DNA of 64,000 bases, taken from positions 62,001-126,000 of the forward strand of contig JAOZOU010000002.1 in assembly GCA_029933125.1 (NCBI GenBank), written 5' to 3'. The translations under genes and the position numbers were made by a program. The notes below the pieces were generated by a model. It ran no database searches and was not told the origin of the DNA. It saw nothing but the letters and a program-made list of their open reading frames with translations. This DNA is from a bacterium. Lineage in GTDB: Bacteria; Arandabacterota; Arandabacteria; Arandabacterales; Arandabacteraceae. Positions within the stretch are counted from its first letter, which is position 1; the number at the start of each line of letters is the position of its first letter. Positions 10,399-49,314 of the stretch are shown here, one piece after another.

Positions 10399-10425
10399 AG
10401 TGGAAGCCTCCATCTTGATGCGATC

Positions 10426-33339: not shown

Positions 33340-33575
33340 TACTTATTGTGTCGCTCCTAGTTCTTTTGATGCTGGTTGGGGCGGTGGCAGCGTGCGTATT
33401 CAAGGATTTGCTTAGTGCGATAATCGCCGCTGCATTGGTTAGTCTGATCGCTGCTGTCCTGTTCTACTTCTTGCAGGCACCCGATGTGGCCATGGCAGAG
33501 GCTGCTGTTGGCGCAGCGCTAACCACGGCGATCTTCGTCGTGGCTATAAGAAGAACAAACAGGTACGAGCAATGA
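33336..33575 (+). CDS. DUF4040 membrane subunit (MbhD/MbxD-like)
   Basis: A 79-residue protein with two to three hydrophobic helices. The A-P-D-V-A-M-A-E-A-A-V-G-A-A-L motif is the one found in the C-terminal part of MrpA and in the separate MbhD/MbxD subunits. The start at 33336 overlaps the mrpG stop by four bases. A longer frame upstream lies within mrpG and is not coding. Having this piece as a separate gene, rather than inside a large MrpA, is the arrangement of archaeal MBH, MBX and MBS complexes. Confidence 0.82.
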   Translation: MILIVSLLVLLMLVGAVAACVFKDLLSAIIAAALVSLIAAVLFYFLQAPDVAMAEAAVGAALTTAIFVVAIRRTNRYEQ

Positions 33576-34252
33576 GGAAGATAATTAGTGTACTGCTTCT
33601 TTCAATAGTGGCGGTGGGGATCTATCTCTCTGTGTCACACATACCATTCGGTGCCCCAAAGACCAAAGTGGGTGGACATTACGTTGAGCAGGGCATGGAG
33701 GAAACGGGAGCTGCCAATATGGTCACCTCCGTGGTGGTGATCTACCGTGGATTTGACACCCTTGGTGAGGTTACAGTTCTGTTCATCGCCGCCGTAGGAT
33801 TGGCAGCGGTTCTGGGGATTGCAGGACAGCAGGGCTTCCCAAGAGAGCCGGCTAGTTTTGTTCTGCGAAACGCTTGCGTAGTCATCTTCCCCCTGATCCT
33901 GCTTTGTGGAACCTATATCTTCGCCCATGGGCACCTGACCCCAGGGGGAGGGTTCCAAGGGGGGGTGGTCATCGCTTCGGCTTTTGTCTTGTCATACCTG
34001 GGTGGACGTGAGCGGAGAATAAGCAAGAGGCTATTTGGCTCGGTTGAATCTCTGGCAGGGTTGGTATTCGTGACGACCGGTTTGATAGGCCTGGCGGTCG
34101 GAGGATACTTCCTTAGCCGCATCCTGCCCAATGGGAGACCGTACAGTCTCCTGAGCGCAGGAATCATCCCGATAATCTACATTGCCATTGGATTCAAAGT
34201 GGGGTCAGAGCTCGCCGGGATAATTGACAACTTGATAGAGGAAACGAAATGA
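33572..34252 (+). CDS. mrpB: MbhE-MbhF-like fusion (MrpA tail plus MrpB)
   Basis: A 226-residue membrane protein joining two units. Residues about 1-90 resemble MbhE, the last helices of MrpA, with a G-A-A-N-M-V-T-S-V-V-V-I-Y-R-G-F-D-T-L-G-E segment. Residues about 95-226 are MrpB/MbhF with H-G-H-L-T-P-G-G-G-F-Q-G-G. The overlap with the preceding gene and the ATGA overlap with mrpC support tight coupling. The fused form is reported in some MBX-type clusters. Confidence 0.85.
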   Translation: MRKIISVLLLSIVAVGIYLSVSHIPFGAPKTKVGGHYVEQGMEETGAANMVTSVVVIYRGFDTLGEVTVLFIAAVGLAAVLGIAGQQGFPREPASFVLRNACVVIFPLILLCGTYIFAHGHLTPGGGFQGGVVIASAFVLSYLGGRERRISKRLFGSVESLAGLVFVTTGLIGLAVGGYFLSRILPNGRPYSLLSAGIIPIIYIAIGFKVGSELAGIIDNLIEETK

Positions 34253-34608
34253 CATTCTTAGAGAACTACGTTTTCTATGTTGGGGCATTTGGTCTCGTCC
34301 TGATAGGTCTTTTCACTATTCTTGTGAAGCGCAATCTCATCAAAGCCATCATTGGATTGGCTATCCTGGATACTGGAGTGAACCTGTTCCTGATCTCTGT
34401 GGGATACTTGGCAAGGGGAACAGCTCCAATTTACACGAGAGCTGAGCAAGGGGCTCAGCCTATGGTTGACCCTGTACCTCAGGCATTGGTTCTGACGGCA
34501 ATCGTGATCGGCGTGGCGGTTCTAGCGCTGGCACTTGCACTGGCAATCAGATTGTACCGTCACTACGGCACACTCGATCTTAGAAAGATAACTGAGCAAA
34601 GATGGTAA
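34249..34608 (+). CDS. mrpC: Mrp antiporter subunit C (MnhC/NuoK-like)
   Basis: A 119-residue NuoK/MrpC homologue with three transmembrane helices. The first contains G-L-V-L-I-G-L-F-T-I-L-V-K-R-N-L-I-K-A-I-I-G, the second has L-D-T-G-V-N-L-F-L, and the third is preceded by D-P-V-P-Q-A-L-V-L-T-A-I-V-I. Acidic and basic residues in the helices belong to the proton/cation path in this family. It overlaps its neighbours on both sides by 4 and 7 bases. Confidence 0.9.
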   Translation: MTFLENYVFYVGAFGLVLIGLFTILVKRNLIKAIIGLAILDTGVNLFLISVGYLARGTAPIYTRAEQGAQPMVDPVPQALVLTAIVIGVAVLALALALAIRLYRHYGTLDLRKITEQRW

Positions 34609-36086
34609 ATCCTGTATTGCTTATAGTGGTACCTTTAGGCTTCGCATTCTTGATCCCGATTCTGTCACTTCTCTCAAAGAAGGCAGCCAAGTACATTCCG
34701 CCGATCCCTCTTTGCTTCAACATCGTAGTCTCCCTTTTACTGTTACCTAGGGCACTGGAGAATCCAGTTGTCGTTTCCATTGGTGGATGGCAACCAGCGT
34801 TTTCTATCAATCTTGTTGCTGGCCCGGTAGGTATTCTCTTGTCGGCCGTCGTAGCCTTCGTGGGGCTGTTAGTCTCCATTTATGCCGTTGACTACATAAG
34901 AGAGGGGGCTACCGACCGGTATCATATGCTTTTCCTGCTGCTCCTAACTGGTGCCACTGGCGTGGTCCTGACAGGTGACATATTCAATCTGTTTGTCTTC
35001 TTTGAAATCCTCTGCATCTCCTCCTATGCCCTGGTGGCATATGCAGGAGACAAAGCTGGGATTGAGTCTGCGGTGAAATACCTGATTCAGGGTGCGGTTG
35101 GCTCGAGCCTTCTGCTCATAGGCATCGGCTTACTCTACGGTCTTTTCGGTACTCTCAACATGGCTGATATCGCCAAGGCACTGCAATCACCCAGTTCTCT
35201 GCCAGTGTTTGTTCCAATGGCTCTTATCATTTCGGGACTGGGTGTAGAGGCAGCCATTTTTCCATTGAACGGTTGGCTGCCCGATGCTCATTCATCTGCC
35301 CCATCGCCAGTGAGCGCGATTCTGTCTGGTATAGCAATTGAAGTAGGACTCTATGCCATTGCCAGAGTTGTGTTCACCATCTTTGGTCTGTCCATAGATT
35401 CTACATCGAACTTCCTCATGTTTCTGGCGGTCCTGGGCATTCTGACGCTGCTGGTAGGAGAAATGTGTGCTCTGGGTCAGAACAACATCAAGAGGATGCT
35501 CGCCTATTCAAGTATAGGCCAGATGGGCTTGATCCTGTTCGCTCTGGCTATGGCTAGCTCATATGCCGTGGTTGGTGGTTTGTTCCAGCTGGTGAGCCAC
35601 ACCCTTGCCAAGGCACTGCTGTTTCTGACAGTGGGCTATATGACTTATAGAACTCATTCTTTGGACGTATCAGCCCTCGCAGGAATCGGTAAGAGAATGC
35701 CCATCACCAGTTTGGCTTTTACCATAGGAGCATTTTCGCTGATAGGGCTGCCACCCTTCGCGGGTTTTCCCAGCAAGCTATTGATCGTTCGAGCGGCTTT
35801 GGCAACTAAGGAATGCCTATTCTTTGTGCTGATTGGAGGTGCCTTGCTGGGCACGGTAATCGAGGCTGCCTATTTCTTCAGAATTGTCCAGGTACTCTAC
35901 TTCAAGGATGGAAATACCAACATCGCGAGGAAGCAAGTTCCAGCTGTTGCTCTGATTCCCATTGTCATATTCGTCATATTGATCGTGGGTATCGGCATAT
36001 ACCCCAAGTTCATAACTGGTCTGTTGAGCTCTGCCGCCGCAGAGCTCTTGAACAGGGTTGACTATATCAGGAATGTACTAGGATGA
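34602..36086 (+). CDS. mrpD: Mrp antiporter subunit D (MnhD/MbxH-like)
   Basis: A 494-residue polytopic protein of the NuoN/NuoM/MrpD family with about 14 helices. Diagnostic segments are F-F-E-I-L-C-I-S-S-Y-A-L-V-A (with the key Glu of helix 5), the P-L-N-G-W-L-P-D-A-H-S-S-A-P-S loop, and K-R-M-L-A-Y-S-S-I-G-Q-M-G. It is the main ion-channel subunit. The start overlaps mrpC by 7 bases, and the stop overlaps the second antiporter-like gene by four. Two such proteins in tandem correspond to MbxH and MbxH' in archaeal clusters. Confidence 0.92.
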   Translation: MVNPVLLIVVPLGFAFLIPILSLLSKKAAKYIPPIPLCFNIVVSLLLLPRALENPVVVSIGGWQPAFSINLVAGPVGILLSAVVAFVGLLVSIYAVDYIREGATDRYHMLFLLLLTGATGVVLTGDIFNLFVFFEILCISSYALVAYAGDKAGIESAVKYLIQGAVGSSLLLIGIGLLYGLFGTLNMADIAKALQSPSSLPVFVPMALIISGLGVEAAIFPLNGWLPDAHSSAPSPVSAILSGIAIEVGLYAIARVVFTIFGLSIDSTSNFLMFLAVLGILTLLVGEMCALGQNNIKRMLAYSSIGQMGLILFALAMASSYAVVGGLFQLVSHTLAKALLFLTVGYMTYRTHSLDVSALAGIGKRMPITSLAFTIGAFSLIGLPPFAGFPSKLLIVRAALATKECLFFVLIGGALLGTVIEAAYFFRIVQVLYFKDGNTNIARKQVPAVALIPIVIFVILIVGIGIYPKFITGLLSSAAAELLNRVDYIRNVLG

Positions 36087-37951
36087 AGCCACAATTGATA
36101 CTGCTGATCGCCTTTGGGGGGGCCTTTCTTACCTACATATTCGGTAAGATCTCCAGTAAGCTCAGGGATGGAGCCGCCGTCGCCATATCGCTAGCACTGG
36201 TCGCCATATTTGCTTGCCTTTATGGCAGGCCCTTGCAGGAGAGTTTCTATTGGGGCTTCCTGGGCCTGAATCTCAGTCTTAGGCTGGATGCACTCTCTTG
36301 GTTCTTCGCTATTGCGATAGTCTCTTTAGGTGCTCTGTCTATCATCTTCTCGCTGAGGTACATGAGGGACAGAGAAAGGACTGACTTCTACTACTCGATG
36401 ATGCTCATGGTCAATGCGGCAATGCTAGGGATCGTTTTGTCAAATGATCTCATAAGTTTCTACATCTTCTGGGAAATGATGTCTTGGTGCACTTTCTTGT
36501 TGATAAGCTACAACCAGCACCGAGCGCTGGATGCCGGCATGAAGTACATCATCATGTCAATGATTGGCTCAGTTGCTATGCTTGCAGGGATCCTGTCGCT
36601 ATACGTTTCCTTTGACACCCTACTCATCCCGCAAATCGCTTCTAGTCTTGCCACCGCTTCTCCGGGCTATGTCCTGTTTGTCTTGGTTATTTTCGGCATA
36701 GCCTTCGGGATTAAGAATGCCATTATGCCCTTGCATACTTGGCTACCCGATTCTTATGCTGAGGCTCCCTCCCCATTCACGGCGGTACTCTCTGGCATGC
36801 TCACACGAATGGGTGTATACGGCCTTCTTCTGATCACCTACGTCATAGGAGGGATGATTGGGGGTACCGGGCTGGGTTCAAACGTGTCCAAATTCAACTA
36901 TGTCCTTGCCTGGCTTGGAGCGCTCACCATAGTTGTGCCCACCTTTATCGCCATGCTGCAGAACGATGCGAAACAGCTGCTTGCGTGGCACGGGATCGGG
37001 CAGGGCGGATACATGGTCTTGGGTATCGGTTTTGGCGTGGCTACTGCAAACAGTCTGGCTCTTGCTGGGGGAATCTTCCACACTCTTAATCACGCAATAT
37101 ATATAGTCCTTCTTTTCATGAGTGTGGCCGCGGTCCAGTACAGGACTGGTGGTGTGAGGGATCTCAACTCTCTGGGCGGTCTCGTTGCAAGAATGCCCGT
37201 TGCATTTGTTGGCGCTCTCCTGGGTATCTCCGGACTGATCGGATTACCTTTGACTAACGGGTTTGTCTCAAAATGGATGATCTATAAGGCATTGATTATC
37301 GAAGGACATCCCTTCTTAGCATTCGCCGCACTGATAGGGACTTGGGGAACTATACTGTCAGTCTATAAGTTCCTCCATAATATGTACCTTGGTCAACTTC
37401 CTGAGAAATACAAGCACCTCGAGAAGTCGCCATTCAGCATGCAGTTGCCTATTGCAGTGCTCTCGTCAGCCGTCGTTTTGTTTGGAATCCTTCCAGGTAT
37501 TCCTCTAAGAGTGATCAATAAAATTTGCACATGGCTGGGTTTCTCATCCCTGGATGTGACCATCTGGGGATTCACTTCCGAGACGGGTACGTTAAACACC
37601 ATAAACCTGCTTGCAGCTATAGTGGTAGTCAGCGCGGTCGTATGGGTGCTCTTCCACCGTGCTGCCAAATCGGTGGTCGTTGCTCAAGATGATAACTATG
37701 CTGCTGGTGCATATGTGCCTAGAGATAAGTATCATTACACAGCAGGATTCTACGAGCCTCTCTTCACAATGCTCAGACCCTACTTGAGAGACGTCGTAGA
37801 TGAATTCTACACAGCACTGGCAGGGGCTGTTAGGAAATCCTGTGGTGCAGTAAGGCGCATTTATACGGGGGACGTCGGCAATTATGTAACCTATATCATC
37901 CTGTTCCTTGCAAGCCTGATTCTTGTGCAGCTTAGGTGGAGACCATGGTAG
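36083..37951 (+). CDS. Second antiporter-like subunit (NuoL/MrpA-like, MbxH' equivalent)
   Basis: A 622-residue polytopic protein of the NuoL/MrpA/MrpD family. It shows F-W-E-M-M-S-W-C-T-F-L-L (helix 5 Glu), P-L-H-T-W-L-P-D-S-Y-A-E-A-P-S, and K-Q-L-L-A-W-H-G-I-G-Q-G-G. The C-terminal extension of about 130 residues ends in one more helix, like the lateral helix region of NuoL or MbxH'. It lies between the D subunit and the NuoH-like subunit, exactly where MbxH' is found, and should connect the antiporter arm to the redox arm. Its end overlaps the NuoH gene. Confidence 0.88.
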   Translation: MKPQLILLIAFGGAFLTYIFGKISSKLRDGAAVAISLALVAIFACLYGRPLQESFYWGFLGLNLSLRLDALSWFFAIAIVSLGALSIIFSLRYMRDRERTDFYYSMMLMVNAAMLGIVLSNDLISFYIFWEMMSWCTFLLISYNQHRALDAGMKYIIMSMIGSVAMLAGILSLYVSFDTLLIPQIASSLATASPGYVLFVLVIFGIAFGIKNAIMPLHTWLPDSYAEAPSPFTAVLSGMLTRMGVYGLLLITYVIGGMIGGTGLGSNVSKFNYVLAWLGALTIVVPTFIAMLQNDAKQLLAWHGIGQGGYMVLGIGFGVATANSLALAGGIFHTLNHAIYIVLLFMSVAAVQYRTGGVRDLNSLGGLVARMPVAFVGALLGISGLIGLPLTNGFVSKWMIYKALIIEGHPFLAFAALIGTWGTILSVYKFLHNMYLGQLPEKYKHLEKSPFSMQLPIAVLSSAVVLFGILPGIPLRVINKICTWLGFSSLDVTIWGFTSETGTLNTINLLAAIVVVSAVVWVLFHRAAKSVVVAQDDNYAAGAYVPRDKYHYTAGFYEPLFTMLRPYLRDVVDEFYTALAGAVRKSCGAVRRIYTGDVGNYVTYIILFLASLILVQLRWRPW

Positions 37952-38841
37952 GAAGAATCTTGCAATTCATCCTATATCCGCTTGTTGCGCTTGCGATAGG
38001 TGTGTTCTTCCTGGGGCTAGCGAGGAAGATCACGGCTAGGATACAGTGGCGCTATGGCCCTCCGCTCGTTCAGCCGGTTATTGATATGATCAGGCTCTTC
38101 TATCAGAAGAGTGTGTCGCATGGACCGGTGTTCGCCGTGGGTCTGATTATGTCCCTGGCGGGGTCCATAGTCGTTGTTCTGTTCCTGCCTTTCGGCTCCA
38201 TCTGCCCTCTCAGTGGGAGTGGTGGTCTACTTGTGGTTCTCTACGTTATGCTCTTGGCACCCATGGGTATTGCCCTGTCGGGAGGACAGGGTGCCAATCC
38301 CAACATCAGTATCGGGATATCCCGAAAGTTGATTCTTGCCTTGGGATACGAAGTGCCCTTCCTCCTGGTGTTGTTGACGGTTATGACTCACTACAACACG
38401 ATTTCCATTGTCCAGGTGGTAGAGGCTCAAAGAGACATAGGGTGGTCAATCGCCTCCCTTCCATTATTCTTGTCAGGAGTTTCGTACCTTCTCATTCTGC
38501 CTGCCATGTTGGGGTTCAGACCATTCGATGTGAGCACCGCTCCCCAAGAGATCTCTTCTGGGCCTCTGGTTGAATACGGTGGCAAATATTTGCTGATGGC
38601 AACGATTGAGCATGCTCTGTTGCTCTTCATCGACATTGCTCTTTTTGTAAACCTGTTCCTCGGTGGCGCAGGAAATCCGATCATCTTTTTCGTGAAGATG
38701 CTGATCGTATTCGTGCTTGTGCTATTCATTCATGCTGCATTTCCGAGGCTGAGGATCGAACAGGCTATCAGATATCTCTGGAAGTGGCCAACAGCATTGG
38801 CCCTTGCGGGGCTGATAATAGTCACAATTGGGAGGAGCTGA
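37945..38841 (+). CDS. NuoH-like membrane subunit (MbhM/MbxM type)
   Basis: A 298-residue membrane protein of the NuoH/HyfC/MbhM family with about eight helices. Segments include R-I-Q-W-R-Y-G-P-P-L-V-Q-P-V-I-D-M-I-R-L-F-Y, A-L-G-Y-E-V-P-F and F-R-P-F-D-V-S-T-A-P-Q-E-I-S-S-G-P-L-V-E-Y-G-G-K. This subunit anchors the hydrophilic redox arm and forms the start of the ion path. The ATG at 37945 has an AGGTGG site five bases upstream. A GTG at 37936 is an alternative but sits on that site. The length and loops resemble energy-converting hydrogenase-related complexes more than NADH dehydrogenase. Confidence 0.88.
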   Translation: MVGRILQFILYPLVALAIGVFFLGLARKITARIQWRYGPPLVQPVIDMIRLFYQKSVSHGPVFAVGLIMSLAGSIVVVLFLPFGSICPLSGSGGLLVVLYVMLLAPMGIALSGGQGANPNISIGISRKLILALGYEVPFLLVLLTVMTHYNTISIVQVVEAQRDIGWSIASLPLFLSGVSYLLILPAMLGFRPFDVSTAPQEISSGPLVEYGGKYLLMATIEHALLLFIDIALFVNLFLGGAGNPIIFFVKMLIVFVLVLFIHAAFPRLRIEQAIRYLWKWPTALALAGLIIVTIGRS

Positions 38842-38844
38842 GAG

Positions 38845-39420
38845 TTGGACAGAAATCAAATTGCAAAGTGGTTCAAAGAGCCTTCTAAGATGGCAAATAA
38901 GTACTCCTTGCATGCGATATACTTTTGCACCGGCTGCGGCATAATTGAAGTACCGCCCGTAATAACGGCGAGATGGGACGCGGAGAGGTTCGGTGTCATA
39001 CCAGTAGCTACGCCTAGACAGGCAAACCTGTTCCTGATAACGGGATATGTCTCAGTGAAAACCCTGAAGGCGATCATCAGAACCTATGAGCAAATGTATG
39101 AACCCAAGTACACTGTTGCGTTTGGCTCATGTCCAATAAACGGCGGAATGTACTGGGATTCCTATAACACCATAAAACATTTGGATAAGTACATCCCGAT
39201 CGATGGCTGGATAGCCGGCTGTATGCCGAGGCCAGAGGCGATATTCGTTGCTGTGACGCATCTGTGGACGCTTATCGACAAAGGAATGGCAAATGGTTAC
39301 GAGAGGTACAAGAAGTACTACCGAGCCTACAGGCGAAACCAAGAGCTGGCTCTTGGTAAGTTGGAATGGCCTCCACTGTATCCGATAGGCGAGCACACAG
39401 AAGGAGGCGAATGTGATTGA
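38845..39420 (+). CDS. NuoB-like [4Fe-4S] subunit (MbhJ/MbxJ type)
   Basis: A 191-residue NuoB/hydrogenase small-subunit homologue carrying the cluster next to the catalytic subunit. The four ligands can be read: Cys28 and Cys31 in C-T-G-C-G, Cys96 in G-S-C-P-I-N-G-G, and Cys126 in G-C-M-P-R-P-E. The first pair is C-x-x-C as in energy-converting hydrogenases and MBX, not the C-C pair of true complex I. Translation starts at TTG (38845) behind a clear GGAGGAG site. The C-terminal 40 residues are basic. It overlaps the NuoC gene by 8 bases. Confidence 0.9.
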   Translation: MDRNQIAKWFKEPSKMANKYSLHAIYFCTGCGIIEVPPVITARWDAERFGVIPVATPRQANLFLITGYVSVKTLKAIIRTYEQMYEPKYTVAFGSCPINGGMYWDSYNTIKHLDKYIPIDGWIAGCMPRPEAIFVAVTHLWTLIDKGMANGYERYKKYYRAYRRNQELALGKLEWPPLYPIGEHTEGGECD

Positions 39421-39928
39421 GCAACTGAAACGGGAATTGGAAGCGACATTCAAGGGCGTCTCCGTAACCTCGGAGGCAGACAGACGTATTACAGTAGTAG
39501 TTGATCCGTTACAGGCTCTTGCGCTCCTCAGGTTTTTCAAGGACAGGGGATTCAGTCATCTTGCGCTCCTATCCGCAGTGGACCTCATAGATAAACATGC
39601 GTTTGAACTCGTTTACGTACTTACAAGCTACGTTGAAGATACTGGTGAGGATGCGGTCCCGGGCGAGCTGATTCTGGTAGTAAAGTCTATGATTCCCAGA
39701 GACAAGCCTACATTCAAATCCGTCATCAGCATCTATCCGAATGCGGAGCCTTATGAGCGGGAAATACATGAGTTATTCGGAATTCACTTTGATGGTCACC
39801 CAAGACTGACACCACTTTTTCTCGAAAGGCAGTATCCAATTCCACCATTTCGGAAAGATTTTGACACTAGGAGATATGTCGAGGATGTCTTCGGTAGCAT
39901 TCCAGCCATCGGCGATGAGGAAGGATAG
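39413..39928 (+). CDS. NuoC-like subunit (MbhK/MbxK type)
   Basis: A 171-residue NuoC-family protein, a structural subunit of the peripheral arm. It has L-L-S-A-V-D-L-I-D near residue 60, then Y-P-N-A-E-P-Y-E-R-E-I-H-E-L-F-G-I-H-F-D-G-H-P and L-F-L-E-R-Q-Y-P-I-P-P-F-R-K-D-F, the family signature. It starts at GTG (39413) after an AAGGAGG site; the overlapping ATG is followed at once by a stop. A possible small gene and then the NuoD-like gene follow. Confidence 0.9.
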   Translation: MIEQLKRELEATFKGVSVTSEADRRITVVVDPLQALALLRFFKDRGFSHLALLSAVDLIDKHAFELVYVLTSYVEDTGEDAVPGELILVVKSMIPRDKPTFKSVISIYPNAEPYEREIHELFGIHFDGHPRLTPLFLERQYPIPPFRKDFDTRRYVEDVFGSIPAIGDEEG

Positions 39929-40115
39929 GGCAGGACTGTTGATAGGATGCGTATCCGAGAGGGTTTGTCCGCCCCGGCGCGGACTGCGAATACGCATGGT
40001 GGCTAATATGGGGCGCATCGTCACATCGAAGGTAAAACACCAGGAAAGCGGTAAGATCGTCTTGAAGAAGTACCTGGGGAAGGATGCGGCACATGAATGG
40101 CACTTCGGAGAATAA
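39915..40115 (+). CDS. Possible small protein between NuoC- and NuoD-like genes
   Basis: An open frame of 66 residues fills the 164-base gap between two complex subunits, overlapping the first by 14 bases and the second by 23. The product is basic, with one Cys pair (G-C-V-S-E-R-V-C) and a C-terminal K-K-Y-L-G-K-D-A-A-H-E-W-H-F-G-E segment. No family is recognised. An AGGAAGG motif falls just inside its start rather than before it. It may be spurious, or a small accessory subunit. Confidence 0.3.
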   Translation: MRKDRAGLLIGCVSERVCPPRRGLRIRMVANMGRIVTSKVKHQESGKIVLKKYLGKDAAHEWHFGE

Positions 40116-41226
40116 GACGAGCGGATCATCAAGGGAGCTCGAGCTCTATTTCGGACCTCAGCACTTAGGCATGGTCGGTAATTTCAGTATTACCCTCAAG
40201 GTTGAAGGCGATCGCATATTGGAGGCACGAGCGAATCCGGGCTTCCTCCACAGGGGTTTTGAGAAACTGATGGAGTACAGAACTTGGATACAGAACTTTC
40301 CGATGGTCTGCAGGATAAACGTAATAGAGTCAGGCTCCATGGAGATGATCTATTCCATGGCTGTGGAGAGTCTGGCGCAGATAGAGGTGCCAGAACGGGC
40401 ACACTATGTAAGAAGCATCTACCTGGAACTTTGCAGGGTGAGCTCGCACCTTTTTGGTCTGTGGGCTTATTCAAACATGCTCGGATTCGATACTGTGGCA
40501 CAATGGGCAATGTATCACAGAGACCTTATCCTCGATCTGCTGGAGGAGCTGACCGGTGGAAGGGTATACAACATATTCATATGGCCAGGAGGGGTTCGGC
40601 GCGATTTTCCCAAAGGCTTCGAAGATAGAATAGTCGAGACACTTCATACCATAGGAAGCTGCGTACCCGACTACAATACTGCCTTCTTCGATAACCGCAT
40701 TTTCTATGAGCGATCAAAGGGAATAGGGAAGATTACCCAGCAAGAGGCGAAGGAGCTGGGTGCCACTGGGCAGACCCTGAGAGCGACCGGCTTGAAGTTC
40801 GACATAAGGAAGGTAGCGCCATATGCCGCCTACGACAAAGTGGAGTGGGATGTGCCCGTGAGAGAGGATGGTGACGCATATTCAAGGATATTAGTGATAA
40901 GGGATGAAATGATCGAAAGTGTCCACATGATATTCAAGCTCCTTGAAGCTATGCCTCAAGGACCTGTTTACAATCGCATACCGAATCCTTTCAAGTGGAA
41001 AATACCCCCTGGTGACACCTATGTAAGATGTGAATCATCGCGAGGGGAGCTGGGACTCTACCTAGTAAGCGATGGTGGAGAGAGGCCATACCGGGTACAT
41101 TTCAGAACACCTTCATACACAAATGGCCTCATCTTGTTGGAGAAACTGCTTCAAGGGGCAAGCATCGCCGATGTCGGGAACATTATGATCAGCCTCTACG
41201 TTGTGGCGCCGGAGATAGACAGATGA
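40093..41226 (+). CDS. NuoD-like catalytic-fold subunit lacking a NiFe site (MbxL type)
   Basis: A 377-residue member of the NuoD/hydrogenase large-subunit fold. G-P-Q-H near residue 21 and G-F-L-H-R-G-F-E-K-L are conserved. Where NiFe enzymes have C-x-x-C near the N-terminus this protein has Cys73 followed by R-I-N. The C-terminal C-x-x-C is replaced by V-V-A-P-E-I-D-R. Three of four metal ligands are missing, so hydrogenase activity is excluded and an MBX/MBS- or Nuo-like role is expected. The ATG at 40093 is preferred because GGGGAAGG lies 9 bases upstream; the ATG at 40084 abuts that site. It overlaps the ferredoxin-GltD gene by four bases. Confidence 0.9.
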   Translation: MNGTSENKTSGSSRELELYFGPQHLGMVGNFSITLKVEGDRILEARANPGFLHRGFEKLMEYRTWIQNFPMVCRINVIESGSMEMIYSMAVESLAQIEVPERAHYVRSIYLELCRVSSHLFGLWAYSNMLGFDTVAQWAMYHRDLILDLLEELTGGRVYNIFIWPGGVRRDFPKGFEDRIVETLHTIGSCVPDYNTAFFDNRIFYERSKGIGKITQQEAKELGATGQTLRATGLKFDIRKVAPYAAYDKVEWDVPVREDGDAYSRILVIRDEMIESVHMIFKLLEAMPQGPVYNRIPNPFKWKIPPGDTYVRCESSRGELGLYLVSDGGERPYRVHFRTPSYTNGLILLEKLLQGASIADVGNIMISLYVVAPEIDR

Positions 41227-43094
41227 AACAGAACGAGGAAAGGGGAACGGGCAGCCTCCTCAGGCCATTGAAGACGATTGGCTTTGTGCTCAGGATACCG
41301 CAGACCCTGCGGTATCCCTTCGAACCCAAGGAGCCTGCGCCGAGATATCGGGGGTTCCATCTCAACGATTGGGAGAAGTGCACAGGCTGCGGCAATTGTG
41401 CGGAAATCTGTCCGAACCAAGCTATCAATATGGTGGAAATAGCCGAAATACAACCTAAGCCCGGTATGAAGAACGAACGTCCGCAGCTGGACTACGGCAG
41501 GTGCTGCTTTTGCGGCTTGTGCGTCGATATTTGCCCAGCGGGTTCATTGAGGCTATCGAGGGACTATTTCCATATTCATTTCGATCCGAAGACCTTTGTC
41601 TTCGTGCCCCAAGATGACAAGACGGACCACGAGCACTTTTACCCCATCGAGCAATACTCCATATTCAAGGCAAGCCTTACCCATCGCAGGCAAGATTATG
41701 AGGGCTTCAGTCCGGATCTAAATTTTGCTCTGTTCGATCCCCAACGCGTACCTATGAAGGAGGTGGAACCTGACAAGAGGGTACTATCGTTCGTAGAACA
41801 GGTCTTGGGATATGACCGCGAGGAAGCACGGGCCGAAGCCTCGAGATGCCTGGAGTGCAAGCTTTGCGAGGAAGCATGCCCTGCTCACATGAAGATATCG
41901 GACTATATCAAGGCAATCTATGAGGACCAGCCAGCCGAAGCGCTCAGACAGATATTTGAGGACAATCCGATACCATCCATCTGTGGCAGAGTATGCATGA
42001 AGCACTGCGAAAAAGCATGTTCCTTGAGCATTAGGGGTGAACCTCTAGCCATAAGGTGGCTCAAGAGATACGTTGCTGATTCGATCACGGATTATCAAGT
42101 TGCCCTCGAGCAGAAGACTGCTGAACCTAGTGGCAAGAAAGTTGCAGTTATTGGTGCAGGTCCAAGCGGACTCTCGGTTGCCTACTTTCTTTCTTTGAAG
42201 GGCCACAAGGTAGTGGTTTTCGATTCCTTGCCTGGTGGTGGGGGGACACTGCGTGTCGGACCGCCCCTTTACAGACTACCACTTGAAGCGATCGATAAGG
42301 ATGTCGATTACATTGCCTCTCTGGGAGTCGAATTCAGATTCAATACAACAGTAGGTAAAGATGTGCTCTTCGAAGACATTCTGAAGGGCTACGACGCTGT
42401 CTTCGTTGGCGTAGGAACAAGAGTCAGTCGATCCACGAAAGTAACGAATAGCGACAGAGCCTACTTGGCACTCCCCTTCCTTGAGCAAAACAAGCTTGGC
42501 AAACCTGTGAAAGTGGGCAAGGAAGTGATCGTTATCGGTGGTGGAAACGTGGCCATCGATGTTGCTAGAGTAGCGCTGCGCTTGCAGCATATACAATATC
42601 CGAATGAAGCGGTCGTAACCAAGGTCGTGTCTCTGGAGGATTGGGATGAGATGCCAGCAACCAAGGAAGAGATCGAGGACGCTAAGGCAGAGGGAATCCA
42701 ATTCAATCCTGGATGGGGACCTAAGGAAATCAAAGTCGCAGACGGTGAAGTGCGAGGCCTCCTTTGCATGAAGGTGAAGGCAGTGTTTGATGAGGCGGGG
42801 CGGTTCAACCCCACTTTCTACGAGGATGAGCTGATGTTCCTCGAAGGTGACATGGTGATCGAAGCGATCGGCCAACGGGCTGATTTCTCTTTTATTCCTC
42901 AGCAAATCCTTGAGAAGCTCGAATTCACCGCCTGGGGAAAGGTCAAGGTCGATGAAAATGGGATGACCACAATCCCTGGCATCTTTGCGGGTGGTGATAT
43001 AGTCAATCTCAACCTGGATGCCGTCACTGCCATTGCCGATGCCAAGGTGGCTGCGGAAGGAATTGACAAGTGGCTTCGCAGGAAAACTACATAA
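41223..43094 (+). CDS. NuoI-like ferredoxin fused to GltD/NfnB-type NAD(P)H flavoprotein
   Basis: A 623-residue fusion. Residues about 1-150 are a NuoI/MbxN-like subunit with two C-x-x-C-x-x-C-x-x-x-C-P cluster motifs beginning at residues 53 and about 95. Residues about 160-620 form a GltD/NfnB-type oxidoreductase. It has an N-terminal Fe-S domain (C-L-E-C-K-L-C-E-E-A-C-P near 210, C-G-R-V-C near 254), an FAD site G-A-G-P-S-G-L near 310, and an NAD(P)H site I-G-G-G-N-V-A-I-D-V-A-R near 438. The C-terminal FAD contact is F-A-G-G-D-I. The subunit that normally receives electrons from ferredoxin therefore carries its own pyridine-nucleotide module, in place of NuoEFG. It overlaps the preceding gene by four bases. 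Confidence 0.9.
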   Translation: MKQNEERGTGSLLRPLKTIGFVLRIPQTLRYPFEPKEPAPRYRGFHLNDWEKCTGCGNCAEICPNQAINMVEIAEIQPKPGMKNERPQLDYGRCCFCGLCVDICPAGSLRLSRDYFHIHFDPKTFVFVPQDDKTDHEHFYPIEQYSIFKASLTHRRQDYEGFSPDLNFALFDPQRVPMKEVEPDKRVLSFVEQVLGYDREEARAEASRCLECKLCEEACPAHMKISDYIKAIYEDQPAEALRQIFEDNPIPSICGRVCMKHCEKACSLSIRGEPLAIRWLKRYVADSITDYQVALEQKTAEPSGKKVAVIGAGPSGLSVAYFLSLKGHKVVVFDSLPGGGGTLRVGPPLYRLPLEAIDKDVDYIASLGVEFRFNTTVGKDVLFEDILKGYDAVFVGVGTRVSRSTKVTNSDRAYLALPFLEQNKLGKPVKVGKEVIVIGGGNVAIDVARVALRLQHIQYPNEAVVTKVVSLEDWDEMPATKEEIEDAKAEGIQFNPGWGPKEIKVADGEVRGLLCMKVKAVFDEAGRFNPTFYEDELMFLEGDMVIEAIGQRADFSFIPQQILEKLEFTAWGKVKVDENGMTTIPGIFAGGDIVNLNLDAVTAIADAKVAAEGIDKWLRRKTT

Positions 43095-43148: not shown

Positions 43149-45524
43149 ATGAGAATCGGTGTATACGTCTGTCACTGCGGTGGGAACATATCTGATACTG
43201 TCGATGTTCAGGCAGTGGCATCATTCGCAGAAAATCAACCGGATGTTGTCTTGGTACGGGATTACTCGCATATGTGCTCTGAGGTTGGTCAGAAGATGAT
43301 ATGGGATGGCATCACCGACCACAAATTGGATAGAGTCGTTATTGCCGCTTGTTCACCGCAGTTTCACGAGAACACTTTCATGGCGACGGTTGAGAAGGCA
43401 GGCTTGTCCCCATATGTCTTGGAGATAGCTAACATCCGTGAGCAATGCGCGTGGCCGCACTTCGACCTTCCTGAAGCCGCAACTGAGAAGGCCAAAGACC
43501 TTGTTGGAATGTCTATAGCAAAAGCTAGGCTGGATGAGGCACTGGCAAAAAGGACTATGCCCATCGGAAAGAGGGTTTTAGTGGTGGGGGGCGGTATTGC
43601 TGGCATTCAGGCATCACTCGATCTGGCTGATGCAGGATTCAAGGTCTATCTTGTGGAGAAAGAGCCAACAATAGGTGGCAAAATGGCTAAGCTGTCTAGG
43701 ACCTTCCCCACCGAAGATTGTGCAGCATGCATACTCTCACCCAAGATGGCAGACGTCCCAGCCAATCCAAACATAGAGCTGCTAACCTTCACAGAAATAG
43801 AAGAAATAACTGGGTATCTTGGCAACTACGAGGTAACCGTCGTCAAGAAACCCAGATACGTCGATACTGAAAAATGCACAGCATGTGGCAAATGCACTGA
43901 GGTTTGTCCTGTAGTGGTTCCTAATGAATATGAAGAGGGGCTCACTTCCAGGAAGGCTATATACCTGCCGTCACCTATAGCAGTGCCACACAGCTTTATC
44001 CTTGATGATCAGGCATGCCTTGGACTTTTCCCTATGGCATGCGAGCGGTGCTCCGAGGTTTGTGAGCCCAACGCGATAAACTATGATGACACCCCTGAAC
44101 GAGTGAAATTCACAGTGGATACAATTATTGTTGCCACCGGTTTTGATATCTTCGATGCAAGGGGGAAGAAAGTCTATGGAATTGAGCACTCAAGAAATGT
44201 GATCACAGCCCTCGATATGGAGCGCCTCATAGTGCATGCGTCAGAAGGTAAGCCATTAAGGCCTATAGGCAAGAGGATTGCATTCATTCAGTGTGTTGGA
44301 TCGAGAGATGAACAAGTCGGAAACGAGCATTGCTCGAGAATCTGCTGTATGTACGCTACCAAATTATCACAGCTGCTCAAGCGTTCCGATCCCAGCCGAG
44401 ATGTTTACGTTTTCTACACCGATCTCAGGGCATACGGCAAAGGCTTCGAAGAGTACTACAAGAGAGCGCAGAGAACAGGAGTCAAGTTCATTAGAGGACG
44501 AGTTGCTGAAGTCAATAGTAGTTCCAGTGATGGGAAGGTCACTCTAAAAGTGGAAGACACGCTTACACGGCAGATTATTGAGGCGGATTTCGATTTGGTG
44601 GTGCTTTCAGTTGGGCTGTTACCGGGCGAAGGTACTAAGCAAATCGCTAGGATTCTGAAACTAGCGGAGAGCCCGGATGGATTCCTTCAAGAAGCACATC
44701 CTAAGTTCAGACCTGTCGATACCCTCGCAGATGGTGTATTCATTTGCGGATGTGCACAAGGTCCTAAGGATATTCCTGACACAGTGGCTCAAGCAAGTGC
44801 TGCTTCTTCAAGGGCAATTAGGCTCATGAACAAGGGGGAGTATGACATAGCTCCGGTGATTGCGTTCGTTCACGATGACCTGTGCAATGGCTGCGGAGAA
44901 TGCATTGGGCATTGCCCCTTCGGTGCCTTGGTTCTCACGCAGACTGCATCTGTGAACGAGGCTGTCTGCCGCGGGTGCGGCAGTTGCATTTCATCATGCC
45001 CCACTGATGCTCTGGATTTGCATTGTTACACTAATGAGCAACTCTTGGCAGTGGTCCGTGCTTCTATGGACAGTAAGCAAGAAGGTGAGATCAGGATACT
45101 GGTGTTCGCTGACGATCAAACCACTTATCGGTTGGCGGATAACGTCGGCACAGGAAAGCTTTCGTACTCTTCACAAACACGCATAATTCGTGTGCCAAGC
45201 GGTGCCAGGGTTACGCCGAAGCTGATGCTGCAGGCCTTTGAACTTGGCGCAGACGGCATATTCATCGGTGAGAGTGAGGAGAAATCGTCTCCTTACCCTC
45301 ACAGCGTTGCAACCATAAAGAAAAACGTAGCCGCTGTAAGGGATGCTTTGTCGAAGAGGAACATAGAGCCAGAAAGGATACGCTACGCAGAATTCGTGAC
45401 TGTAATGCTGGGGGCATTTGTAAATCAGCTCAACGGCCTATGCGACTTTGCCAGATCTTGCGGACCCATATCCGCTGACCAGAGGCGTGGGTTGGCGCAC
45501 GATCAGGTAGAACTGAAGCAGTAG
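43149..45524 (+). CDS. hdrA: HdrA-like flavin/iron-sulfur subunit with degenerate MvhD tail
   Basis: A 791-residue heterodisulfide reductase A homologue, the flavoprotein that can bifurcate electrons. Visible parts in order: V-C-H-C-G-G at the N-terminus; FAD-binding V-G-G-G-I-A-G-I-Q-A near 144; E-D-C-A-A-C-I-L-S-P; a cluster motif C-T-A-C-G-K-C near 243; C-E-R-C-S-E-V-C; and two ferredoxin-type clusters near 579 and 607. Residues about 640-765 align with MvhD, including the F-E-L-G-A-D-G-I-F-I segment, but the cysteines that bind the [2Fe-2S] cluster in MvhD are gone. An AAGGAG site precedes the ATG. HdrC, HdrB and a fumarate reductase pair follow. Confidence 0.92.
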   Translation: MRIGVYVCHCGGNISDTVDVQAVASFAENQPDVVLVRDYSHMCSEVGQKMIWDGITDHKLDRVVIAACSPQFHENTFMATVEKAGLSPYVLEIANIREQCAWPHFDLPEAATEKAKDLVGMSIAKARLDEALAKRTMPIGKRVLVVGGGIAGIQASLDLADAGFKVYLVEKEPTIGGKMAKLSRTFPTEDCAACILSPKMADVPANPNIELLTFTEIEEITGYLGNYEVTVVKKPRYVDTEKCTACGKCTEVCPVVVPNEYEEGLTSRKAIYLPSPIAVPHSFILDDQACLGLFPMACERCSEVCEPNAINYDDTPERVKFTVDTIIVATGFDIFDARGKKVYGIEHSRNVITALDMERLIVHASEGKPLRPIGKRIAFIQCVGSRDEQVGNEHCSRICCMYATKLSQLLKRSDPSRDVYVFYTDLRAYGKGFEEYYKRAQRTGVKFIRGRVAEVNSSSSDGKVTLKVEDTLTRQIIEADFDLVVLSVGLLPGEGTKQIARILKLAESPDGFLQEAHPKFRPVDTLADGVFICGCAQGPKDIPDTVAQASAASSRAIRLMNKGEYDIAPVIAFVHDDLCNGCGECIGHCPFGALVLTQTASVNEAVCRGCGSCISSCPTDALDLHCYTNEQLLAVVRASMDSKQEGEIRILVFADDQTTYRLADNVGTGKLSYSSQTRIIRVPSGARVTPKLMLQAFELGADGIFIGESEEKSSPYPHSVATIKKNVAAVRDALSKRNIEPERIRYAEFVTVMLGAFVNQLNGLCDFARSCGPISADQRRGLAHDQVELKQ

Positions 45525-45532
45525 GAGGCAGT

Positions 45533-45937
45533 ATGGCAAACAGGCTTATGATTTCGACTGGAAACGAGGAATTCCTCGAGCGGATAAGCGAAATGAGCGG
45601 CCAGATCATAACGCTATGCGAACAGTGCGGGGTATGTTCTGGAAGTTGTCCAATGGTTTCGGAGATGGACATAACACCGTCCCAGATGATGAGAATGGTT
45701 CAACTAGGGCAGAGTGAGGTTCTGCGCGCAAAGACAATCTGGTTGTGCGCTTCGTGTTTCACGTGCACTGTGCGATGCCCTCGTGGCCTCGACCTTTCCA
45801 AGGTAGCCGAGGCATTGCGGCAGGTAATCCTCAGACAAGCGGTCGATCATATTGATATCAAGGCTCTCCCCAGGGATGAGCTAGTCGAACTCCCGCAGAT
45901 TGCACTGGTGGCCGGCATGAGGAAATTCACTGGCTAG
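45533..45937 (+). CDS. hdrC: HdrC-like ferredoxin subunit
   Basis: A 134-residue HdrC homologue with two complete [4Fe-4S] motifs: Cys29, 32, 35 and 39, and Cys72, 75, 78 and 82. It passes electrons between HdrA and the CCG subunit HdrB. It is cytoplasmic, with no membrane helix, unlike membrane HdrE/DsrM-linked systems. The gene begins 8 bases after hdrA with an AGGAGG site and ends 12 bases before hdrB. Confidence 0.92.
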   Translation: MANRLMISTGNEEFLERISEMSGQIITLCEQCGVCSGSCPMVSEMDITPSQMMRMVQLGQSEVLRAKTIWLCASCFTCTVRCPRGLDLSKVAEALRQVILRQAVDHIDIKALPRDELVELPQIALVAGMRKFTG

Positions 45938-45949
45938 GAGGACTTTGAA

Positions 45950-46840
45950 ATGGAGCCTGATATCCATAAATTCCCCTACTATCCGGGGTGCACCCTAAAG
46001 ACTACCGCCCGTAACTTTGAAGTATCCGCCCTGGCGTGTGCCAAGAAACTAGGGATAGAGCTGGTGGAGCTTCCAAGGTGGAATTGTTGCGGCACTGTTT
46101 TCTCGCTGACAGATGATGATCTAATCCATCATGTGGCTGCGGTAAGAAACCTTATCCGTGTGCAGGAAATGAATCGAGACGGGATGGTAGAGGAGAATAG
46201 ACTGGTGACGCTTTGCTCAATGTGCTTCAACACCTTGAAGCGAGTGAACCTATTGGTTAAGGAGAACCCCGAGAACCTCGAGAAGATCAATAACTTCATG
46301 TATTTGGAAGATGACTATGAGGGAAACGTTGAGGTCATACACTTTCTGGAATTGCTGAGAGAACTGGACCCCGGTGCAATATCCCAAAGGGTCGAGAGGC
46401 CGCTTACCGGGCTGAGGGTAGCACCCTACTATGGGTGCCTGATGCTAAGGCCAAGGGAGGTCGGCATTGACGATCCCGAGGAACCGACGATTCAAGGTGC
46501 TATATTGGCTGCTGTGGGAGCAGAGGTGATTTACAACAGTTACATGAAGGTATGCTGCGGTAGCTACCAGACAGTGAATGACAAGTCTGCAGTTGCCCGG
46601 TTGGTATATGATATCCTTAGCCATGCTCAGGCTGACGGGGCACAGGCAATAGTCACCTCGTGCCCTCTCTGTGCCTACAATCTTGACAGCCGGCAGAAAG
46701 AAGTCAGGGAGATCTATCCTGATTTCGAGCAGATTCCAGTTTTCTATTTTACCCAACTGATGGCCGTGGCCTTCGGCTTCGGAGCAGACTTATGCGGATT
46801 CGATCCAAATCAGTTAGTCCCCGAGCATTTGCTCAAGTAG
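45950..46840 (+). CDS. hdrB: HdrB/SdhE-like CCG-domain subunit
   Basis: A 296-residue protein with two complete CCG motifs. The first has Cys14, Cys46-Cys47, Cys89 and Cys92. The second has Cys163, Cys202-Cys203, Cys238 and Cys241. In HdrB these hold noncubane [4Fe-4S] clusters that cleave the CoM-CoB disulfide. In type E succinate dehydrogenases the related SdhE takes the place of a membrane anchor. Gene order here (hdrA, hdrC, this gene, sdhB, sdhA) fits both roles. The archaeal thiol:fumarate reductase carries the same domain fused to its B subunit. An AGGAGGA site precedes the ATG. No membrane helix is present. Confidence 0.9.
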   Translation: MEPDIHKFPYYPGCTLKTTARNFEVSALACAKKLGIELVELPRWNCCGTVFSLTDDDLIHHVAAVRNLIRVQEMNRDGMVEENRLVTLCSMCFNTLKRVNLLVKENPENLEKINNFMYLEDDYEGNVEVIHFLELLRELDPGAISQRVERPLTGLRVAPYYGCLMLRPREVGIDDPEEPTIQGAILAAVGAEVIYNSYMKVCCGSYQTVNDKSAVARLVYDILSHAQADGAQAIVTSCPLCAYNLDSRQKEVREIYPDFEQIPVFYFTQLMAVAFGFGADLCGFDPNQLVPEHLLK

Positions 46841-46886
46841 GTTTAGAGTTTGTCGGAATAGGGAGTAATAGAAGCAGGAGATTGCC

Positions 46887-47642
46887 ATGAAGACTGAAGA
46901 GAGCATCATGCAGCGAATTGCCGATGCTGCGAAGGCCGTCACCAGGGGTGTAGATGCTAAAGATATCGAGCACTGGGTGACCATCTACATAATGGGAAGG
47001 GCTTACAAGGTGCCTGCAGATCTAACCATATTGACTGCCATGGAGTATGCGGGCTACAGATTCGTGAGAGGTGTGGGTTGTCGGCAGGGCTTCTGCGGTG
47101 CATGTTCGACAGTATACCGAAAAGAGGGTGAGTACAAGCTTCAAACAGGGATGGCCTGCCAGACAAGGGTTGAGGACGGAATGTACCTGGTTCAGATACC
47201 TTTCGCGCCCGCAGAAAAAGCTGCCTATGACATAAGCAAGGAAAGCTATGATGCATCAGTTTTTCTCAAGTTCTACCCCGAGGTAGCGAGGTGTGTGTCT
47301 TGCAACACCTGTACCAAGTCATGCCCCCAGGATTTGGAAGTAATGGATTACGTCCAAGCCGCGATAAGAGGGGATTTCCAATCCCTGGCGGAGGGCTCTT
47401 TCGACTGCATCCAGTGTGGTCTGTGCGCTATGAGATGCCCAGCTGACATCGTGCAGTACAACGTTGCTCAACTAGGCAGAAGGATGTATGGCAGATACGG
47501 GATGCCTGTACCCAAGCACCTTATTACACGTTTGCAAGAGATAGAAGCTGGCAAATTCAGGGGAAAAATGGATCAGCTTGTGGCTGTCCCAAGAGAGCAG
47601 CTGGAGAAGCTTTATGCGAGTCGAGTGAGGGAGGCAGACTAA
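46887..47642 (+). CDS. sdhB: SdhB/FrdB/TfrB-like iron-sulfur subunit
   Basis: A 251-residue iron-sulfur subunit of a succinate dehydrogenase/fumarate reductase. The N-terminal [2Fe-2S] site uses Cys65, 70, 73 and 91. The C-terminal part has Cys136, 139, 142, 146 and Cys174, 177, 180, 184. Ordinary SdhB proteins lack a Cys equivalent to Cys177 and therefore hold a [3Fe-4S] cluster. Here a full set is present, so a second [4Fe-4S] cluster is likely, as in soluble thiol-linked enzymes. It lies 46 bases after hdrB and 1 base before sdhA. No sdhC or sdhD anchor gene is present. Confidence 0.88.
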   Translation: MKTEESIMQRIADAAKAVTRGVDAKDIEHWVTIYIMGRAYKVPADLTILTAMEYAGYRFVRGVGCRQGFCGACSTVYRKEGEYKLQTGMACQTRVEDGMYLVQIPFAPAEKAAYDISKESYDASVFLKFYPEVARCVSCNTCTKSCPQDLEVMDYVQAAIRGDFQSLAEGSFDCIQCGLCAMRCPADIVQYNVAQLGRRMYGRYGMPVPKHLITRLQEIEAGKFRGKMDQLVAVPREQLEKLYASRVREAD

Positions 47643-47643
47643 C

Positions 47644-49314
47644 ATGGGGAAGAAGACCACTGGGATCAGATATGTCGGGGGTTACCCTGAATACATGCGG
47701 AAACTGATATCCATTGTTCACAAGACCAGGGCAAAAAGGAGAGACTACACGCCTCCTCCTATGACCAAGGAGGAGCAGGAGGAGGTGCTAAAGCTGCATC
47801 CAGATTATGCCCCTGGGGGTAAAAGGACCATATCTGTTGGTCCCAACAAGGGTGATATCGGTCCAACCGAAGTTGTAGATCTAGTCGAAGCTTATCCTCT
47901 TGTGGAGGAGGGGGAGATTGATCTGTCAAAGGTGGACTATAGTCCTGACATTCTCATAATAGGTGGCGGCCTTGCCGGGACATCGGCAGCCATTTGGGCA
48001 AATGACAGTGGTATTCCCAAAGAAAAGATCTTGCTTACGAACAAACTAAGGCACGGGGATGCCAATTCGATAATGGCCGAGGGCGGCACCCAAGCCGCGG
48101 ACCGTAGCGTCGACTCTCCAGAAAGACATTTCATCGACACGATTGGAGGTGGGCACTTCGCAAACAAACCGGACGTAGTGAGAGCCCTAGTAGAAGATGC
48201 ACCACTCATAATCCGCTGGCTGCTTGACCTCGGTGCAATGTTCGACCGCGAAGAAAATGGGGATTTCGTTGAGAAGTGGGGTGGTGGCACGTCCATAAAG
48301 AGATTGCACTCATGCAGGGATTACACGGGGCTTGAGGAGATGAGGGTGATAAGGGATGAGCTGAGAAGCCGAGGAATCCCATGTATCGAACACTTCCCTG
48401 CCATTGAGCTTCTCACGGATGGCGAAAACAGAGTCACTGGAGCTGTGCTCTGGAACCTTGAAACAGGTGAATATAAGATAGTCAAGGCGAAAGCCACGAT
48501 CCTGGCCACGGGTGGGTTTGGCAGACTACACATTCGAGGGTTCCCAACTACCAATCACTATGGTGCTACATGCGATGGTGTAGTAATAGCTTATCGTGCA
48601 GGCGCCAGGCTCAGAGACATCGATACAGTGCAATACCACCCAACAGGTGCTGCATATCCCATCCAGATTGTAGGTTATCTGCTCACTGAGAAGCTCAGAA
48701 GTTCGGGGGCTCAGCCTGTGAACAAGGATGGAGAAGCATTTGTATTCCCTTTAGAGCCGAGGGATGTGGAAGCAGCTGCGTTGATCAGAGAATGCTATGT
48801 TCGGAACAAGGGTATTACCACGCCGACCGGATTGAGAGGGGTATGGCTTGACACCCCTTTGATCGAAGAAAAGAATGGCGAGGGTTATATCGATAAGGCA
48901 TTTCCGGGCATGAGGAGAATGTTTGCTAGGTTCGACATCGATATGCGGAAGGATCCCGTGCTTGTATTCCCGACCCTCCATTACCAGAACGGTGGGATTG
49001 AAACAGATCCACATGGGAAAACCAATGTCGAGGGATTATGGGTAGCTGGTGAGGTGTCGGGCGGAGTACATGGCAAGAATAGGCTTATGGGGAATTCAAC
49101 GTTGGATTGCCTAGTTTTCGGAAGGAGAGCAGGTATCTCAGCAGCTGAGTACGTGAAGTCGGGTCGGGGGGGTGGGGCGCTGACCTTGAAGCATGTAACG
49201 GGCTATGTTAAGGATCTTGAGCGAGCAGGTATCAGACCTGAAAGAAGATCTCCCATACTTCTCCCCGACTATAGGGGTAGGGCTGCCCTTGCGAGGATGA
49301 TAGATGTGTTCTAG
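47644..49314 (+). CDS. sdhA: SdhA/FrdA/TfrA-like flavoprotein subunit
   Basis: A 556-residue flavoprotein. The FAD dinucleotide site is I-I-G-G-G-L-A-G-T near residue 107. The segment A-N-S-I-M-A-E-G-G (140-148) carries Asn141 where covalently flavinylated SdhA has His, so FAD is probably held non-covalently. Substrate-site elements Q-Y-H-P-T-G, H-Y-Q-N-G-G-I and H-G-K-N-R-L-M-G-N-S are present, supporting fumarate or succinate chemistry. An N-terminal extension of about 95 residues precedes the flavin domain. It ends the 17.5-kb cluster. Direction (fumarate reduction or succinate oxidation) cannot be read from sequence. Confidence 0.88.
   Translation: MGKKTTGIRYVGGYPEYMRKLISIVHKTRAKRRDYTPPPMTKEEQEEVLKLHPDYAPGGKRTISVGPNKGDIGPTEVVDLVEAYPLVEEGEIDLSKVDYSPDILIIGGGLAGTSAAIWANDSGIPKEKILLTNKLRHGDANSIMAEGGTQAADRSVDSPERHFIDTIGGGHFANKPDVVRALVEDAPLIIRWLLDLGAMFDREENGDFVEKWGGGTSIKRLHSCRDYTGLEEMRVIRDELRSRGIPCIEHFPAIELLTDGENRVTGAVLWNLETGEYKIVKAKATILATGGFGRLHIRGFPTTNHYGATCDGVVIAYRAGARLRDIDTVQYHPTGAAYPIQIVGYLLTEKLRSSGAQPVNKDGEAFVFPLEPRDVEAAALIRECYVRNKGITTPTGLRGVWLDTPLIEEKNGEGYIDKAFPGMRRMFARFDIDMRKDPVLVFPTLHYQNGGIETDPHGKTNVEGLWVAGEVSGGVHGKNRLMGNSTLDCLVFGRRAGISAAEYVKSGRGGGALTLKHVTGYVKDLERAGIRPERRSPILLPDYRGRAALARMIDVF

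Follow-up and report, generated by a model that had tools for sequence, protein, structure and literature searches.

For Pseudoclostridium thermosuccinogenes, an operon of Flx, heterodisulfide reductase (Hdr) and fumarate reductase genes has been put forward as a way of linking the formation of succinate to the reduction of ferredoxin (PMC7282089, which cites a 2019 preprint by Koendjbiharie and van Kranenburg). In Methanosarcina acetivorans, the fusion of HdrA with MvhD in HdrA2B2C2 bifurcates electrons with its cluster intact, and the complex also takes electrons from ferredoxin (PMC5296606). The subject here is a five-gene run, HdrA-HdrC-HdrB-FsB-FrdA, in a bacterium of the Arandabacteraceae (assembly GCA_029933125.1, contig JAOZOU010000002.1, positions 62,001 to 126,000; this whole stretch of 64,000 nucleotides is the window). 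It probably encodes a soluble, bifurcating HdrABC-FrdAB fumarate reductase. An Hdr-linked bifurcating fumarate reductase is already published as a hypothesis for P. thermosuccinogenes, and the literature on such a link yielded that proposal and no report of its breadth. What is new here is how widely the linkage occurs, how donor modules are swapped around it, a flavin site that is invariant and of predicted non-covalent type, and an HdrA variant whose MvhD domain has no cluster.

The five genes span positions 43149-49314, all on the + strand as called from open reading frames, with intergenic gaps of 8, 12, 46 and 1 base pairs (bp). FsB is the name given here to the protein with one [2Fe-2S] and two [4Fe-4S] clusters, and FrdA denotes the fumarate-reductase-type flavoprotein. 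The genes lie where the initial annotation had placed a HdrA-HdrC-HdrB-SdhB-SdhA module, and profile matches assign them to the Hdr families and to the SdhA/FrdA-type flavoproteins. Every protein scores under the cut-off of its own NCBIfam model. A promoter and terminator scan gave no more matches than shuffled sequences did.

FrdA (47644..49314, +, 556 residues) is a flavoprotein of the SdhA/FrdA/TfrA type according to profiles and a structural model (predicted local distance difference test score, pLDDT, 84; predicted template-modelling score, pTM, 0.87), and its best solved match is E. coli FrdA (1kf6). Residues H332, T348, E349, R352, R373, H446 and R480, equivalent to E. coli H232, T244, E245, R248, R287, H355 and R390, are invariant in all 56 aligned rows. 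In the same 56 of 56 rows an Asn (N141) replaces the flavin-linking His, and the flavin adenine dinucleotide (FAD) is predicted to be bound non-covalently. Relatives with non-covalent FAD are reported to reduce fumarate and not to oxidise succinate (PMC9557727). Fumarate reduction is favoured for FrdA because the linking His is always Asn. The initial annotation had left the acceptor as fumarate or a disulfide; fumarate is now indicated as the likely one by the invariant dicarboxylate residues, the predicted non-covalent FAD and, in relatives, linked fumarase and malic enzyme genes (L043 by Pfam; L104, L105, L110, L111, L116, L117 and L128 by similarity). The label SdhA holds at the level of this broad flavoprotein type and fails in detail, for the C-terminal domain PF02910 is absent and the protein has a conserved N-terminal extension. 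The extension (47644-47940) comprises about 95 residues, is predicted with high confidence and has no Pfam match. The best named match of FrdA is TfrA, at 305.6 bits against a cut-off of 718. The only other SdhA-like genes in the genome are a 56%-identical paralogue (L061) and NadB. L-aspartate oxidase was rejected as the identity of FrdA, which scores 257.5 bits on TIGR00551 (cut-off 452.75), since the genome has a separate NadB at 693 bits to NF006567.

FsB (46887..47642, +, 251 residues) carries an N-terminal [2Fe-2S] domain followed by two CX2CX2CX3C [4Fe-4S] motifs. Its 12 cysteines, of which C65, C70, C73 and C91 form the [2Fe-2S] set, are invariant in 31 of 31 rows. FsB has no [3Fe-4S] motif of the complex II type, an absence that fits the lack of a quinone site. 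In its AlphaFold model (pLDDT 83, pTM 0.60) the orientation of the domains is uncertain, and Foldseek gave partial matches only (RnfC, HdrC, SdhB-type and [2Fe-2S] proteins) with low template-modelling scores and no match over the whole protein. The earlier label SdhB is thus right about the layout, but the SdhB domain PF13085 scores 14.4 bits against a cut-off of 27, and there are two [4Fe-4S] motifs and no [3Fe-4S] motif. No SdhB above the PF13085 cut-off occurs in the genome, which is 97% complete. The pair had also been described as soluble, without a membrane anchor, and this agrees with the absence of PF01127, the SdhC-type anchor, from the whole genome (other anchor families were not searched). 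A canonical complex II is rejected on the lack of that anchor, of covalent FAD, of PF02910 and of [3Fe-4S]. UbiA-family genes are present in the genome and are unspecific as a sign of a quinone partner.

HdrB (45950..46840, +, 296 residues) has two complete non-cubane (CCG) cluster motifs and aligns to solved HdrB. Its score on TIGR03288 (149.5 bits) is matched by an equally high similarity to SdhE of MFR (NF042965, 148 bits). As an HdrB-type subunit it is placed to act as the CCG partner that had been envisaged. Nine of its ten ligand cysteines are present in all 39 FrdA-linked rows, and C92 is present in 97%. HdrC (45533..45937, +, 134 residues) contains two [4Fe-4S] motifs and reaches 70 bits on TIGR03290 (cut-off 160).

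HdrA (43149..45524, +, 791 residues) is of type Ia/HdrA2. Fe-S domains at the N-terminus, in an insertion and at the C-terminus accompany its FAD/thioredoxin-reductase core, and an MvhD domain is fused at the C-terminal end. It scores 930.9 bits on NF040770, the HdrA2 subclass, whose cut-off of 1100 bits it does not reach. Residues 2-641 cover the whole core of the solved HdrA of Methanothermobacter and Methanothermococcus (alignment to 8rvu and 5odc), and all cluster ligands are retained in the alignment. C194, E358 and K405, read off the alignment as Cys197, Glu356 and Lys409 of 5odc, are kept in 41, 45 and 43 of 45 homologue rows, respectively. The Lys/Glu pair has been linked to bifurcation (PMC12054007).

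The distribution of the module was followed in a panel of 386 genomes, a locus being counted as linked if Hdr genes lay no more than 8 kilobases away on the same strand. FsB occurs in 40 of them. Leaving aside the window's own family and order, 33 genomes with FsB remain, and Hdr is linked in 21 of them (in L106 through a divergent HdrA only). In five more the contig is cut; three of these contigs carry Flx genes, one carries MvhD and one is too short. Another three encode, in place of Hdr, a 4Fe-4S protein for which one transmembrane helix is predicted, and four have neither, three of these being distant (33-36% identical). Linkage was likewise found for 47 of 66 FrdA homologues. The initial annotation had proposed a survey of co-occurrence, and linkage between Hdr and the SdhAB-like pair indeed recurs in unrelated genomes, far beyond chance. 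FrdA homologues with 74-84% identity come from metagenome-assembled genomes (MAGs) labelled Eisenbacteria, WOR-3, Aminicenantes, Cloacimonadota, Bacteroidetes and Phycisphaerae and a Hecatellales archaeon, and those with 58-64% identity from further archaea and Bipolaricaulota. The module is spread over several bacterial phyla and archaea, many of them uncultured anaerobes. The FrdA tree intermixes phyla, which suggests that the module moved between lineages; mislabelled MAG contigs could contribute. In L068, L115 and L124, the helix of the 4Fe-4S protein that adjoins FsB-FrdA is C-terminal, and the arrangement may represent a membrane-linked variant.

Around the constant core the donor modules are exchangeable. 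FlxABC adjoins it in L037-L039, L043, L047 and L108 (FlxB by Fer4_22), and at no fewer than 13 loci its neighbour is the [NiFe] hydrogenase MvhGA (PF00374). Separate MvhD proteins at other loci have the [2Fe-2S] motif intact in nearly all cases. Genes for 2-oxoacid:ferredoxin oxidoreductases often adjoin the core in relatives.

The favoured reading, held with some confidence, is that HdrA, HdrC, HdrB, FsB and FrdA form one soluble, cytoplasmic complex for the reduction of fumarate to succinate, with an electron split at HdrA. What was observed is the linkage, the cluster ligands, the active-site residues and the donor swaps; from these are read the assembly into one complex, the path of the electrons, their bifurcation and the direction of the reaction. 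Electrons would enter HdrA and be split at its FAD. On one branch they would pass HdrC, both non-cubane clusters in HdrB and then the FsB clusters, [2Fe-2S] and [4Fe-4S], to reach the FAD of FrdA and finally fumarate; the other branch would lead from the HdrA FAD to ferredoxin. In relatives the donor would be NADH (FlxABC) or H2 (MvhGA), with entry through the [2Fe-2S] cluster of MvhD. The reduction potential of fumarate is +33 mV. With textbook potentials, the overall reaction has a standard free energy of about -33 to -49 kJ/mol for NADH, and is thus exergonic, and of -70 to -85 kJ/mol for H2. The split between ferredoxin and fumarate at HdrA had been predicted by the initial annotation; the conserved E358 and K405 and the likely fumarate acceptor speak for it, and the bifurcating step itself is inferred.

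Several observations weigh against this reading. The MvhD/FlpD domain (45096..45521, +; PF02662, 80.7 bits), which makes up the C-terminal 140 residues of HdrA, has none of the cysteines of the CX2CX25CX24CX4C [2Fe-2S] motif when aligned with seven like copies and six intact MvhD. The window variant therefore lacks the branch through which known bifurcating Hdr complexes take in electrons, and in it they must enter another way. Elsewhere a fused HdrA occurs with HdrCB and without its own FrdAB (L158), or alone (L156). The FsB-FrdA pair does not adjoin Hdr in L068, L115, L120 and L124. A thiol partner is also conceivable, because HdrB has all the ligands for disulfide reduction.

The cluster-less MvhD is found in seven further loci (L031, L036, L048, L049 and L156-L158). 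All eight copies share the signature FADD..YRL.D..G..K..Y / PS..R.T / SP / VT.M, and for this reason the domain looks maintained rather than decayed. Flx or Mvh genes adjoin none of the eight cluster-less copies but do adjoin 18 of the 30 copies whose MvhD is intact (p about 0.003 by Fisher's test, uncorrected for kinship). The association of the cluster-less domain with the lack of neighbouring donor genes is suggestive only, given the kinship among the rows and the shortness of several contigs. NADH, which had been considered as a donor, is unsupported for the window copy, where no Flx genes adjoin the module and the MvhD cluster is lost. F420H2 is an unlikely donor, as no CofH was found in the genome. 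In the window variant, HdrA might take electrons directly from ferredoxin or a pyridine nucleotide, or a partner encoded elsewhere might supply them. Tentatively, and with more doubt than conviction, the cluster-less MvhD may mark a distinct class of HdrA with a new electron entry and a donor new for any Hdr complex, for example by direct binding of pyridine nucleotides or by docking of the NuoI-GltD protein encoded upstream.

The loss of the MvhD cluster and the count of none in eight for adjoining Flx or Mvh genes would also suit a complex of the same composition that does not bifurcate here. Reduced ferredoxin from 2-oxoacid oxidoreductases or a complex-I-like enzyme would then pass its electrons through HdrA to fumarate as an electron sink. 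HdrA2B2C2 of M. acetivorans accepts ferredoxin (PMC5296606), and 2-oxoacid oxidoreductase genes lie upstream in L049 and L036. This remains unlikely, however, as E358, K405 and all HdrA cluster ligands are retained and about 87 kJ/mol would be lost per fumarate. It is improbable that the locus encodes two enzymes, an HdrABC that reduces a small or protein disulfide and a Tfr-like thiol:fumarate reductase, made of FrdA, FsB and HdrB, that restores it. TfrA as the best named match of FrdA (306 bits), the two intact non-cubane clusters of HdrB and the union of such parts in a single TfrB point that way. Yet the operon has a single HdrB, FsB has no CCG domain, FrdA stays under the TfrA cut-off of 718 bits, and DsrC, considered as the thiol partner, was rejected as none was found in the genome.

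That FrdA and FsB act as an independent soluble fumarate reductase with another partner, the Hdr genes being mere neighbours, is very improbable. Relatives with an unlinked pair had been named beforehand as evidence against the proposed module, and they exist in part: L068, L115 and L124 have the 4Fe-4S protein with the predicted helix, and L120 and the distant L069 and L131-L133 have no Hdr. L158, which combines a fused HdrA and HdrCB without FrdAB, also speaks for this reading. Against it, most members of a broad clade that includes several phyla and archaea retain the Hdr linkage, and so do both module copies of this genome. The reverse direction, succinate oxidation driven by ferredoxin through confurcation, can hardly be credited. 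The 2-oxoacid oxidoreductase genes that often adjoin the core would serve a tricarboxylic acid (TCA) cycle of either direction, but Asn stands in place of the flavin-linking His in 56 of 56 rows, such enzymes are reported to be unable to oxidise succinate (PMC9557727), and the reversed NADH reaction would cost 33-49 kJ/mol.

Upstream of the module, a complex-I-like operon (31816..41226, +) encodes Mrp-type antiporter subunits, NuoM/L-like proteins, NuoH, NuoB, NuoC and NuoD. The NuoI-GltD fusion of this operon (41223..43094, +; NF010590, 705 bits, cut-off 946) ends 54 bp before the start of HdrA. The suggestion that this membrane complex re-oxidises the ferredoxin finds weak support. The order NuoI-GltD then HdrA is kept in the sister species G001 (L177, 96-99% identity), so far within one genus only. 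But the NuoI-GltD complex-I-like operon stands alone in G346, G247 and G330 (L179-L181), and at E <= 1e-120 there is no NuoI-GltD match in G002 (87% complete) and G005 (73% complete), members of the same family that both carry HdrA-FrdA; at this completeness the gene may have been missed there. As a fixed part of the module the operon is unsupported outside one genus. Very large open reading frames with HdrA-like and NuoI-GltD-like parts occur in L040 (16598-20806, 1403 residues) and L122 (1477 residues). Just downstream of FrdA lie transposase remnants of the Mutator type (PF00872; 49963-50478, -) and of the IS110 type (PF01548; 50338-50892, +).

The paralogue of FrdA belongs to a second module that this genome carries (L061, G000:C84), 56% identical, in the order HdrC-HdrB-HdrA-FsB-FrdA and without MvhD. 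A complete FlxABCD-HdrABC-like cluster with intact MvhD (L160, G000:C120, 5500-12043) lies apart from any fumarate reductase. At 4053-11616 on the - strand of the window, one run contains CitF (510 bits, cut-off 501), CitE with a CitD-like acyl carrier protein domain, two aconitase-family proteins and an isocitrate-dehydrogenase-like protein; citrate synthase is encoded elsewhere in the genome. This run could be a reductive TCA branch of the citrate-lyase type or could serve citrate fermentation. Phosphoenolpyruvate carboxykinase is also encoded in the window, and with these enzymes a supply of oxaloacetate, and of fumarate from it, is plausible from the gene content.

If fumarate reduction is coupled to ferredoxin, anaerobes would gain low-potential electrons from a step of the TCA cycle without quinones or cytochromes. 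The source of reduced ferredoxin in bacteria with a reductive TCA cycle has been described as unresolved (PMC10052474), and an Hdr-fumarate reductase is a testable answer for the lineages that carry the module. The swapping of donors offers natural controls, namely H2, NADH and the cluster-less variant.

FrdABCDE of Hydrogenobacter thermophilus is not known to have an HdrA or to bifurcate. It is described as a soluble, multi-subunit, NADH-dependent fumarate reductase of an autotroph (Miura 2008, cited in PMC12743299). Subunits of the FrdABCDE type are also listed for Aquifex (PMC10052474), and in a paper on WOR-3 the frd genes and the mvh/hdr genes appear as separate entries (PMC12542636). The P. 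thermosuccinogenes operon, as described in PMC7282089, groups a fumarase and an NADH dehydrogenase/Hdr complex with two genes for fumarate reductase, kinds of genes that by this description are those of L043. Compared with that description, the window copy is without Flx and an operon fumarase, and a cluster-less MvhD is fused to its HdrA. Like the methanogen coenzyme M/coenzyme B (CoM/CoB) fumarate reductase TfrAB, it brings SdhB-like and CCG parts together and has TfrA as its nearest named match, but its CCG part is a separate HdrB instead of being fused as in TfrB, and its scores are far under the Tfr cut-offs. With HdrA2B2C2 of M. acetivorans (type Ia HdrA, PMC12054007) it shares an HdrA-MvhD fusion accompanied by HdrB and HdrC. 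In contrast to the window copy, HdrA2B2C2 keeps the [2Fe-2S] cysteines of MvhD, uses F420H2 as donor and CoM-S-S-CoB as acceptor, and has no FrdAB. The HdrABC-MvhADG complex of methanogens (5odc, 8rvu) has the same HdrA core, ligands and bifurcation residues together with HdrB and HdrC, whereas the window copy has neither a hydrogenase nor an MvhD cluster and has the FsB-FrdA acceptor module added.

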